Source of the DNA: a virus | Direction: 5' to 3' (one strand) | DNA length: 44,673 bases | IMG/VR virus record: IMGVR_UViG_3300042476_000112 | Location: 1-44,673 of that record | Shown here: one piece after another, positions 7,770-44,467 of the stretch | Layout of the letters: each line of letters begins with the position of its first letter | How positions within the stretch are numbered: position 1 is the first letter of the stretch | Translations under genes and position numbers: made by a program | The notes under the pieces: model-generated | What the model saw: the letters and a program-made list of their open reading frames with translations, nothing else | The model's database searches: none | What the model was told of the DNA's origin: nothing

Positions 7770-8998
7770 AACATGACGTTGCCCAGATCCTCACGGAACA
7801 AGAATTATATGGATGGTACTTTGATGAGCCTGCTGCATGGCAACTTGCACAGACTCTCTACGCCGAGCTTGCTGATCTTAATCAGCTACTACGGGAGCGG
7901 TACCCTTACATCGCTGGACCGGAGTTTACTCCTAAGCGACCTAACAAAACACAAGGATATGTCACCGGAGCTACTTTCACTAGACTAAAGGAGTTTAATC
8001 CAACAAGCCGTGAACACATCGCTTGGGTGATGAAGGTACGTCACGGACGTAACTTCGAGAAGATGACAGCAAAAGGCAAGACTGCCATTGATGAAGTTGT
8101 TCTCAAGGATCTAGGTACTGAAGAAGCCCTTCAGTTCTTTCGTTGCCTTGAACTGACAAAACAACTTGGCATGTTATCTGAAGGCAAGAATGCGTGGTTA
8201 AAGTTGGTACGAGACAATCGTATTCACCACCACTGTTCAGTAGCCACCAACACTTTTAGATGTGCACACCGTAATCCAAATCTCGGGCAGGTACCAAGTG
8301 ATCTTGAATTTAGAAAACTATTTCGTGCTAGCCCTGGGTATGTCATGGTTGGCGCTGATCTCGCAGGCATTGAACTTAGAATGCTCGCACACTATCTGGC
8401 TCGATATGATGGAGGCAGGTACGGAGACGTACTTCTCAACGGTGACATACACCAAGAGAACGCTGACAAGATTGGAATTTCACGCCGACTAGTAAAGACA
8501 GTAACCTATGCCTTTTTGTACGGAGCCGGTGACCAAAAGATCGGACTATCTTACGATGCACAACTATCTCCCAAAGATGCCAAAGCTAAAGGTGCCGAGA
8601 TCCGTCAAGCTTACATGGATGCAATTCCAGGACTTGAGAAACTGGTTACTGCGGTTAAGTCCAAGGCGGAATCTGGTTACATCAGCTTGTGTGACGGTCG
8701 CCGCTGCGCTGTTGATGGTAGCCACAAAGCCCTTAACTACCTACTCCAAGGGAGCGCGGGTATTATAGCTAAACAATGGATGATTCACACTCATAATGTG
8801 ATCAAACAATGTGAAATCAATGCACATCAACTAGCTTTCGTTCATGATGAATTGCAGTTCGAGTGCCCACCAGACTATGCTGATACCCTATCATCGGCGC
8901 TATTGATCTCTGCTCTAACAGCAGGAGAAACTTATGACCTCAGGGTTCCTATTGCAGCCGAAGCTAAAGTAGGTCAAACCTGGGCAGATGTCCACTAA
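7730..8998 (+). CDS. DNA polymerase, family A polymerase part (split T7 gp5)
   Basis: Polymerase domain of the T7-type replicase, up to 422 aa if started at TTG 7730; no in-frame ATG occurs before residue ~101, well inside the domain. Motif A has Asp210 (VGADLAGIELR), motif B Lys256 and Tyr260 (VKTVTYAFLYGAG), motif C His372-Asp373-Glu374 (VHDELQFE). Tyr260 aligns with T7 Tyr526 (position 762 of E. coli Pol I), the common T7-like variant. The 40-base overlap with the exonuclease ORF could permit coupling or frameshifting. Confidence 0.92.
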   Translation: METLSTIPGWITLEHDVAQILTEQELYGWYFDEPAAWQLAQTLYAELADLNQLLRERYPYIAGPEFTPKRPNKTQGYVTGATFTRLKEFNPTSREHIAWVMKVRHGRNFEKMTAKGKTAIDEVVLKDLGTEEALQFFRCLELTKQLGMLSEGKNAWLKLVRDNRIHHHCSVATNTFRCAHRNPNLGQVPSDLEFRKLFRASPGYVMVGADLAGIELRMLAHYLARYDGGRYGDVLLNGDIHQENADKIGISRRLVKTVTYAFLYGAGDQKIGLSYDAQLSPKDAKAKGAEIRQAYMDAIPGLEKLVTAVKSKAESGYISLCDGRRCAVDGSHKALNYLLQGSAGIIAKQWMIHTHNVIKQCEINAHQLAFVHDELQFECPPDYADTLSSALLISALTAGETYDLRVPIAAEAKVGQTWADVH

Positions 8999-36040: not shown

Positions 36041-36369
36041 TGTCTAACACCACCTTTTCTTGGAACATTGCAAACCTTGAACGTACCCTTGCTACTGGCG
36101 AAGTCACCACAGTTCACTATACGGTAACTGCTAAAGATGATGCCTATAGCGCAGGTGCTTATGGTTCTATTGGACTTGATCCTGCAGAGCCGGAATCAAT
36201 GGTGCCTTTTGCAAGTCTTGATGAATTTACTGTAGCAAGTTGGGTTGCTAACAAGTTTGGTCCAGAGAAAGTGCAAGAAATCCAAGATGCACTGCAACAA
36301 CAACTTGATATTCAACGTACTCCTGTGACTGGCTCTGGAGTTCCCTGGAATACACAACCTACTGCATGA
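36040..36369 (+). CDS. Conserved cyanophage protein (109 aa), possible structural role
   Basis: The product starts MSNTTFSWNIANLERTLATGEV and contains VHYTVTAKDD, YGSIGLDP and FGPEKVQEIQDALQQQ, ending GVPWNTQPTA. I recall many cyanophage proteins with this ISNLERTLATG... opening, of unknown function (a DUF-type family). Coupled to int by TAATG. It may be an adhesin-associated or regulatory small protein; not resolvable here. Confidence 0.75.
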   Translation: MSNTTFSWNIANLERTLATGEVTTVHYTVTAKDDAYSAGAYGSIGLDPAEPESMVPFASLDEFTVASWVANKFGPEKVQEIQDALQQQLDIQRTPVTGSGVPWNTQPTA

Positions 36370-42199: not shown

Positions 42200-42828
42200 C
42201 AGTATCACTTATCCATTCCACCAAAGATGGTGATGACCTTATTGCCTATATGGCACGTGTTTCTAACCCAGCTAATCAAAACACTAAAGATAGTGCTCGT
42301 TTAATTAGCTACCTTATTAAGCATAACCACTGGTCACCGTTTGAAATGGTGAACATGTGTGTAGAAATTGAGACAACACGTAGTATTGCAGCACAAATCA
42401 TTCGACATAGGTCCTTTAGCTTCCAGGAGTTTAGTCAACGGTATGCACAAGTAGTTGGTGAACCCGTCCTGCCTCAACTACGCAGGCAAGATACTAAGAA
42501 CCGACAGAATAGCATTGATGATCTAGATAGCATGGAGGTTACTTACTTACAACAACAGATTGTTGATCACTTTGATGAAGGTGTAGCACTGTATGGAAAA
42601 TTGCTGGAAGCTGGGGTAGCCAAGGAATGTGCCCGTGAAGTGCTGCCATTAGCAACGCCTACTAAGCTTTATATGAATGGTACTCTGCGGTCCTGGATAC
42701 ACTATTGTAACCTTCGGTGTGGGAATGGTACACAACTGGAACACAAGCGTATTGCAGAGGCTTGTAGAGGTCTTATACAGCAGTCCTTTCCTAATACGTA
42801 TAAGGCTGTGTTCTCTATTTCCGAATAA
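42196..42828 (+). CDS. thyX: Flavin-dependent thymidylate synthase
   Basis: 210 aa. The ThyX signature RHRx7S is exact: Arg70-His71-Arg72 ... Ser80 (RHRSFSFQEFSQRYA). C-terminal motif RSWIHYCNLRCGNGTQLEH matches the substrate-binding helix. Makes dTMP from dUMP using FAD, methylene-THF and NADPH, raising thymidine supply together with the phage ribonucleotide reductase. Located at the end of the late region and directly before the large non-coding region. ATG in a 4-base overlap with the preceding gene. Confidence 0.96.
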   Translation: MTVSLIHSTKDGDDLIAYMARVSNPANQNTKDSARLISYLIKHNHWSPFEMVNMCVEIETTRSIAAQIIRHRSFSFQEFSQRYAQVVGEPVLPQLRRQDTKNRQNSIDDLDSMEVTYLQQQIVDHFDEGVALYGKLLEAGVAKECAREVLPLATPTKLYMNGTLRSWIHYCNLRCGNGTQLEHKRIAEACRGLIQQSFPNTYKAVFSISE

Positions 42829-42848
42829 CGAATAGGGGTCGTTAGTTT

Positions 42849-42876
42849 TTAACAGAAATTTCTTAAGCCTTATACT
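42849..42876 (+). promoter_or_regulatory. Sigma70-like promoter of the non-coding region
   Basis: TTAACA (42849-42854, 5/6 to TTGACA), a 16-base spacer, TATACT (42871-42876, 5/6 to TATAAT). It lies 20 bases after thyX and points into the structured region, with transcription expected to begin near 42883. The 11-mer TATACTACGCT at 42871-42881 recurs at 43676-43686. Confidence 0.6.
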
Positions 42877-42882
42877 ACGCTG

Positions 42883-43750
42883 AAGCAGCGACGCAGACCC
42901 CCATAGGGGTACCCCCGGATCACACGTGCACACACCCGGGGGCAGGCACATGTACGCACCTGAGGGCGTGTAGACGCAGCCACTACGCAGCCACGCACAC
43001 ATACACATACCTACAGATGCACACGAGGAGTGGACAATAGTACAACTGTCCTACCTACCAATCTCAAACATCTGTAGCAATTCTCAATAGCTAACCTTAT
43101 TGAGAACCCAGTGATACCAATGGATCACAGCGAAACACTGTACCATAAGCAACCCTGATAACCACTGCAACAACAAGGATCAGGCTGTACTATGTGCCAC
43201 TCTCTCCAACTGTCCACCAACCATCGCTGCTAGGCTAAACCCATACTCTTCTTTGAATGTTGAGAGTATCTCGACTCTCCCTGTTAAGGGTGAGGAGAGT
43301 CTCGAAACTTCAACCAGAAGAGATGAGAGCCACCGACAACTGAATACGGCAAGCAGCCCTTGGCACTGTGCCACCTGACAAGCCGACCACTCCCTCCCTC
43401 AAACCAGCCACCCTGGCTTTAGGATGGCAAAGCACCTGGAAAACTGAAGAGCCAAGGCTGAGTAGGACCACGGGTCACTGCCGCCACCAAGCTGCCGAGC
43501 TAGTGCCAACTAGCGTTGCCGGGACTCCAGCTGGTGGGTTAGGGTACACTCCTTAGGTGCCAGCCGTGCCACGCCGAGAAGGGTTAGCACACCAAGCGCC
43601 GAGCCACAGGCGCAGACATAAATTAGATCATGGCCGCCCGGATAGAGCCTAAGCCTCTGCTATGCCCTGATGAGGTATACTACGCTTAGGTCATCATGAG
43701 TCTGATACTGAGGTGGAAGCGATACTCAGAGACTCACCAATCCACTTGCC
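42883..43750 (+). ncRNA. Large structured non-coding RNA (about 870 nt), GOLLD-like in size and context
   Basis: No credible ORF occurs between 42829 and 43758. Perfect or near-perfect stems read by eye: 42897-42901/42906-42910; 42912-42918/42936-42942; 42966-42969/42974-42977; 43011-43019/43069-43077 enclosing 43032-43036/43047-43051; 43081-43089/43098-43106; 43111-43115/43124-43128; 43154-43159/43179-43184; 43243-43249/43263-43269; 43273-43280/43294-43301; 43406-43410/43414-43418; 43499-43504/43509-43514; 43530-43534/43560-43564; 43596-43600/43609-43613; 43648-43654/43684-43690 enclosing 43661-43666/43674-43679; 43697-43703/43730-43736 enclosing 43708-43712/43725-43729. A pseudoknot joins 43253-43261 with 43306-43313. 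G+C is visibly higher than in genes. Ends are estimates; function unknown. GOLLD RNAs are phage-encoded, of similar length and complexity, but homology is not shown. Confidence 0.65.
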
Positions 43751-43758
43751 TTTTAATT

Positions 43759-43998
43759 ATGTTCAGCTTCAACGTTACCAACCGTACTTCCGGTGCTATC
43801 GATTGTCTGCTTGTTGATCCTACCCGTGGCACTGCTTGTGTCGTATTCAAGAATGGGTATAGCTACGCTTACCTCAACGTAAGCCGTCGTGCTATTCTCA
43901 ACCTGCTTGCTAACAAGAATATGAGCCTAGGTTTCTGGGTTAATGAGAACCTGGTCAACGCTAAGCGTACCTTCGAATGCTCACTGAACTACGCTTGA
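43759..43998 (+). CDS. Small KTSC-like protein (79 aa)
   Basis: ATG 43759 (the longer in-frame start at 43696 would run through a hairpin of the non-coding RNA). The product contains VFKNGYSYAYLNVSRRAILNLL followed by MSLGFWVNENL, resembling the KTSC-domain pattern of G-x-x-Y-x-Y-x-x-V...S-x-G. The family is found near phage early genes and single-stranded DNA functions, role unclear. First gene after the non-coding RNA, with early-type codons. Confidence 0.65.
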   Translation: MFSFNVTNRTSGAIDCLLVDPTRGTACVVFKNGYSYAYLNVSRRAILNLLANKNMSLGFWVNENLVNAKRTFECSLNYA

Positions 43999-44021: not shown

Positions 44022-44063
44022 CCCATCACTTACGATGGGTTTCTGTAGCTTACACATAGCTAC
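44022..44063 (+). terminator. Terminator-like hairpin followed by a second hairpin
   Basis: CCCATC-ACTTAC-GATGGG (44022-44039) then TTTCT, followed by GTAGCT-TACACAT-AGCTAC (44045-44063). The first has the build of a weak intrinsic terminator. The same two-hairpin order, with a shared TTTCTGTAGC junction, recurs at 44407-44448. Confidence 0.55.
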
Positions 44064-44086
44064 TTGTACATTCGCTTTACACAAAC

Positions 44087-44406: not shown

Positions 44407-44448
44407 AGGGATCATACACTGATCCTTTTCTGTAGCCCTCAAGCTACA
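44407..44448 (+). terminator. Intrinsic terminator plus second hairpin
   Basis: GGATCA-TACAC-TGATCC (44409-44425) followed by TTTTC, a good intrinsic terminator right after the gene ending at 44395. Then TGTAGC-CCTCAA-GCTACA (44431-44448) forms a second hairpin, as in the pair at 44022-44063. CAATTGTT after it also appears before the first gene of the window (13-style position 10-17). Confidence 0.7.
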
Positions 44449-44467
44449 ATTGTTTACCCAATTGATT

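Follow-up and report, generated by a model that had tools for sequence, protein, structure and literature searches.

In a marine T7-like cyanophage, the non-coding interval that runs from thyX at the right genome end (stop at 42828) to the first early gene, e1, is probably a left-end control region, made up of a terminal repeat, one or more host-type early promoters and a structured 5′ leader of about 515 nt on the early-operon transcript. Only ~43242-43758 looks like RNA. A sequence-only reading of this DNA had described the whole of 42829-43758 as one giant RNA, either a GOLLD relative or a new class. The second half of that interpretation fared well: the lack of an Rfam match, covariation in a hairpin (H1) and in an H-type pseudoknot, and strict synteny support a structured RNA that is conserved among T7-like cyanophages and had not been curated before. 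The proposed kinship with GOLLD and the idea of a free RNA of ~0.87-0.9 kb were not sustained.

Locus and coding content

Positions are those of the window, the whole stretch of 44,673 nucleotides that was analysed (IMG/VR record IMGVR_UViG_3300042476_000112). It is a circular-type assembly, the genome ends of which were placed through linear relatives. The virus is a T7-like Synechococcus phage (Autographiviridae), nearest to S-CBP4 and other marine-Synechococcus Autographiviridae, and its genes include those for a T7-like RNA polymerase, a terminase and ThyX. Among the matches listed, the terminase gene lies upstream on the same strand in 103 of 103 testable contigs, and e1 lies downstream on the same strand in 102 contigs, that is, in all those with an e1 match. 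The gene starts at 43759 and not at 43696, and its position fixes the 3′ end of the leader.

The claim that the interval holds no credible gene was confirmed, as a conserved protein frame was looked for in the homologues and each reading frame is open in at most 5 of the 85 nonredundant leaders. Minus-strand proteins have been annotated inside the region in relatives (S-CBP4_0001 and S-CBP3_0015). The former, drawn over the leader at 257-652 of locus L001, is probably spurious because stops or gaps break its frame in relatives. The features of the region are collected in Table 1.

Table 1. Features of the left-end region of the window
Feature	Position	Strand	Remarks
P0, promoter-like TTAACA-N16-TATACT (TTTTNACAGAAATTTCTTAAGCCTTATA)	42849-42876	+	On the left boundary of the terminal repeat
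Terminal direct repeat, about 198 bp (inferred)	42872-43069		By homology with S-TIP37 and S-SBP1
Upstream regulatory DNA	43070-43230	+	Promoter-proximal by homology
Conserved (G/C)ATAAGCA-N4-TGATAACC	43144-43168	+	Within upstream regulatory DNA
Conserved CTGTCCACC	43210-43218	+	Within upstream regulatory DNA
P1 -10 element, TAGGCT (TANNNT)	43231-43236	+	Near-fixed distance in homologues
H1	43242-43325	+	Hairpin at predicted +1; lower stem covaries, apex (43271-43303) is near-invariant
Motif (A)CCUNGACAACUNAAUA (GACAACU motif), first copy	43330-43346	+	Motif in 85 of 95 leaders
P2, degenerate second promoter	43398-43425	+	TTGACA-N17-TATGGT in S-CBP4 and other sister leaders; decayed in the window
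GACAACU motif, second copy	43432-43450	+	Directly behind P2
H-type pseudoknot	43596-43634	+	Stem 1 GCGCC/GGCGC; loop GA-GCCA-CA; stem 2 GCCA with UGGC (43631-43634)
Stem CCUAAGC/GCUUAGG enclosing hairpin UAUGCC-CUGAUGA-GGUAUA	43648-43690	+	At the place of the relatives' tRNA-like acceptor and T-arm
Hairpin with conserved loop GUG(G/A)AAGCGAUA	43698-43735	+	S-CBP4 lineage
e1, first early gene	43759-43998	+	79 aa, phrog_7365 (no assigned function)
Paired hairpins with UUUCUGUAGC, terminator- or processing-like	44022-44070 (e1/e2), 44412-44450 (e2/e3)		Terminator-like parts 44022-44039 and 44431-44448

Several parts rather than one giant RNA

Folding of the whole interval gave z-scores of -2.5 (plus strand) and -1.6 (minus strand), and folding of the leader alone gave -2.2; coding pieces of 516 nt from the same phage ranged from -0.5 to -2.5. 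Because the z-score of the interval overlaps those of coding DNA of the same length, a 930-nt architecture has no support from energy, and the whole-interval fold was dropped as evidence. The sole segment that stands out is H1 (43242-43325, z -4.7). By the same measure, the fifteen or more perfect stems that had been counted do not rise above chance. Nor did the compact multi-stem RNA of ~900 bases survive, as its first ~200 nt match the terminal repeat of linear relatives and 43331-43590 folds with a z-score of +0.5. Large parts of the interval are poorly conserved. What stands of the original description is the non-coding character, the promoter-like sequence at the left edge, the pseudoknot and a non-random hairpin.

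The hairpin H1

A 49-base match in several cyanophages was the starting point for a pattern scan of IMG/VR, in which the H1 core pattern gave at least 120 matches. H1 is a long imperfect hairpin with conserved internal loops. In an alignment of 44 nonredundant sequences, compensatory changes occur in 12 of the 23 pairs of the lower stem, and 95.7% of cells are paired, as opposed to 79% after shuffling and about 50% after sliding. Native arms fold better than arms swapped between sequences in all 44 cases. Covariation, the absence of which would have spoken against the proposed stems, is therefore present here as it is in the pseudoknot. The invariance of the apex is partly built in, since the scan required most of it; a terminase-anchored sample in which the motif was not used contained H1 in 13 of 34 loci with enough downstream sequence. 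The core pattern has no match in the GTDB genome set (84,980 species), and H1 as a host RNA was rejected on this basis; a search with the H1 model found no match in P-SSP7, Syn5, S-CBP1, S-B28, S-SRP01 or DSL-LC07.

Two loci bear on what H1 might do. L101 carries two copies on its reverse strand, at 8172 and 8797, about 625 nt apart. The second copy lies inside the leader beside a T-arm and has no -10 element in front of it, so H1 cannot be only a 5′ cap. In L141, whose terminase is 99% identical to that of the window, H1 is missing while the 3′ part of the leader and the terminal-repeat region are retained, so the hairpin is dispensable.

The pseudoknot and the 3′ part of the leader

The pseudoknot that had been pointed out in the sequence proved to be a covarying H-type structure. 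Its pattern is a hairpin with the loop GA-NNNN-CA, behind which come NUCA and four bases complementary to NNNN. Stem 2 takes the forms GCCA/UGGC, CCCA/UGGG, GGCA/UGCC, GUCA/UGAC and GCCU/AGGC, and GCAA/UUGC in L141; it is complementary in 33 of 34 sequences, against a mean of 18.5 and a maximum of 25 after shuffling. The same structure is present in the Prochlorococcus phages 9515-10a and P-SSP10, and in one variant from freshwater, with UCCA in the loop and UGGU downstream, only three of the four stem 2 pairs remain.

Evidence that is supportive but weaker points to a tRNA-like fold in relatives. A T-arm whose 7-nt loop is canonical (in most cases UUCGAGU or UUUGAGU) precedes e1 in 54 of 90 leaders and is often enclosed by an acceptor-type stem. 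A strict detector gave 33 hits on the sense strand of the leaders; the antisense strand and 533 kb of upstream late DNA yielded no hit. The acceptor stem was found in 21 of 32 cases, compared with 10.4 (maximum 16) when flanks were swapped. P-SSP10 (L140) has three such folds, near 36205, 35994 and 35300, on the transcribed strand and all at early gene borders. ARAGORN, run on 57 loci, made no tRNA call in most leaders. The S-CBP4 lineage, including the window, is without the tRNA-like fold; in the window, where a T-arm with a 7-nt loop plus acceptor stem was not found, the fold is degenerate or replaced, which leaves no basis for claiming tRNA-like processing in this phage. Among the sister sequences aligned, the stem at 43648-43690 is common to L070 only. 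For the hairpin that follows it, a pairing of loop GUGGA with a downstream UCCAC was considered and discarded, being broken in some sister sequences. An attP reading of the tRNA-like fold was also rejected: the fold holds a T-arm, the tRNA 3′ half, and stands before e1, and an attP is defined as matching the first half of a host tRNA-Leu, downstream of int (PMC8776855).

Promoters and the terminal repeat

The linear records of S-TIP37 and S-SBP1 have direct repeats of 150 bp and 180 bp, respectively, at both ends. These repeats begin at a TATACG-like sequence and end immediately before ATCTGTCG, just upstream of the leader in both relatives; aligned to the window, they place its own predicted repeat at ~42872-43069. 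An inverted repeat, CTACAGATG/CATCTGTAG (43011-43019 and 43069-43077), spans the right edge and is possibly a packaging signal.

The promoter announced at the left edge exists as a TTAACA-16-TATACT sequence, P0, but it sits on the boundary of the terminal repeat and not at an RNA start. Throughout the group, P0 is conserved together with its spacer, and it is predicted to be either a promoter or a terminase/concatemer site. With one copy in the window, it was rejected as a recurring phage promoter. In linear DNA, its -35 part would be present at the right end only. A transcript from ~42883 had been proposed; a start at ~43242 is better supported. In 123 of 125 homologues, a TANNNT element lies about 38-43 nt upstream of the H1 core, where chance would give perhaps a quarter to a half by our estimate and the 125 sequences are related; P1 has no -35 element at a fixed distance. 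From this spacing, the +1 is predicted at the base of H1, and P1 may be regarded as a candidate promoter, less firmly supported than the hairpin itself. Promoters of the P2 type (TTGACA-like, N16-18, TANNNT), with both hexamers, occur farther downstream in 12 leaders, each 7-10 nt before GAACCUNGACAACU. P-SSP10 has tandem TTGACA promoters at the equivalent place, and L141 has only a promoter of this second, TTGACA-like type.

Possible functions of the leader

We infer, tentatively, that the leader serves in 5′ protection plus processing of the early mRNA. H1 at the 5′ end would block 5′-end-dependent decay by host RNase E and would present its invariant apex to a conserved partner. The pseudoknot and the tRNA-like fold, or its replacement, would mark a processing and/or translation-initiation boundary for e1, and the elements of the 3′ leader may stand in for the RNase III sites of T7. 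We favour a protecting and processing leader because the predicted 5′ end falls at the base of H1, no terminator-like site was found between H1 and e1, and host RNase E rises during infection by P-SSP7 (PMC10989914). A 5′ cap is at most part of the explanation, in view of the internal H1 of L101 and the loss of H1 from L141. In an unlikely variant, T7-like cyanophages would divide the early transcript by means of the tRNA-like folds ('tRNA punctuation', by host RNase P/Z), and H1, as a sequence-specific RNA element, would act on the host transcription or decay machinery.

The main rival, unlikely on balance but live, is that H1 may promote antitermination in cis, as HK022 put RNA does: on the growing transcript, the hairpin would bind host RNA polymerase, which would then read through the hairpin terminators between early genes. 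A near-invariant apex on a covarying stem, placed where the early operon begins, would suit this role, as would the internal copy kept in L101 and the terminator-like hairpins that follow e1 and e2 in the window. Those hairpins, however, are weak and near shuffle expectation (2 against 1.3, sd 1.0), and L141 manages without H1. A free-standing regulatory or structural RNA released from the locus, such as a packaging RNA or a GOLLD-like particle, has a smaller chance still. It would draw on the position at the genome end beside the terminase genes, with the pseudoknot and the tRNA-like fold as conceivable release points, but it must contend with the missing terminator, with e1 always following on the same strand where this is testable, with the lack of an Rfam match and with the poor conservation of much of the interval.

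We consider it improbable that RNase III cuts the early transcript at H1 and at the intergenic hairpins, as a cyanophage version of the T7 R sites. Their long imperfect form with conserved internal loops and their place, that of the T7 early leader, would fit, and cyanobacteria possess RNase III and Mini-III (PMC10989914). A cut in H1, at the predicted +1, would nevertheless remove only H1, and RNase III does not require an apex so nearly invariant. That the conserved elements act as DNA, in terminase recognition, as a replication origin or as transcription-factor sites, is very improbable: although the region adjoins the terminal repeat, P0 is conserved in single copy and the GATAA block resembles a DNA site, such a role accounts neither for the compensatory changes in H1 and the pseudoknot nor for the strand asymmetry of the tRNA-like folds, and cruciforms do not explain a pseudoknot.

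Relation to known systems

No Rfam family matches the leader, even at lax thresholds; the Ocean-VI motif (PMC2864571) has no Rfam entry and so falls outside this comparison. The GOLLD covariance model gave no match at its gathering score in the window, and in 42700-43900 it gave none at E<=10. Many GOLLD RNAs are longer than 800 nt, and they often lie near tRNA islands and have a universally conserved 3′ region; they form homo-oligomeric cages, and GOLLD rises during lysis (PMC12286853). Like GOLLD, the leader is phage-encoded, structured and without an assigned function, but it measures only about 515 nt and no tRNA gene was found in the window. The cyanophage motifs of a 104-RNA survey, manA, wcaG and PhotoRC-II, are tied to other genes (PMC2864571). 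We found no published RNA data on the leader region in the literature searched.

The closest parallel in layout is the left end of coliphage T7. There, a terminal repeat is followed by the tandem host promoters A1-A3 and an RNase III site before gene 0.3. The cyanophage region shares the order of terminal repeat, host-type promoters, untranslated leader and early genes, and P-SSP10 and relatives of S-CBP4 have tandem TTGACA promoters as well. The difference lies in H1, the covarying pseudoknot and the tRNA-like folds. The antiterminator RNA put of HK022 resembles H1 by description, being a conserved hairpin with which an early phage transcript opens. In P-SSP7, where the layout is the same, the terminal repeat measures 206 bp and 728 bp precede the first ORF; the passages of that report consulted here describe the ends alone, without RNA structure (PMC3350473). 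An H1-like hairpin and T-arm folds are readable at the left end of P-SSP7, although the likeness of the hairpin is by eye and fold and the H1 model does not match it.

The leader would add several RNA families to Rfam, and its near-invariant hairpin, pseudoknot and tRNA-like folds offer defined targets for deletion in S-TIP37, a phage with a published genetic system (PMC8776855).

Other elements of related early regions

tRNA-Asp (GUC) genes or candidates occur in the early region of some relatives (L068, 2679-2752; L130, 6323-6396; L039). In others, including S-CBP1 and the lake phage DSL-LC07, H1 is replaced by a different conserved domain of ~80 nt (CACAAGACGGAACUAGCGGAGCGAGCGAUCCCGCGAGUAG...), seen in L134, L139, L151, L156, L162, L169, L175, L176, L195, L207 and L208. 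This domain has no Rfam match and displays apparent compensatory changes, GUAGU/ACUAC versus ACAGU/ACUGU.
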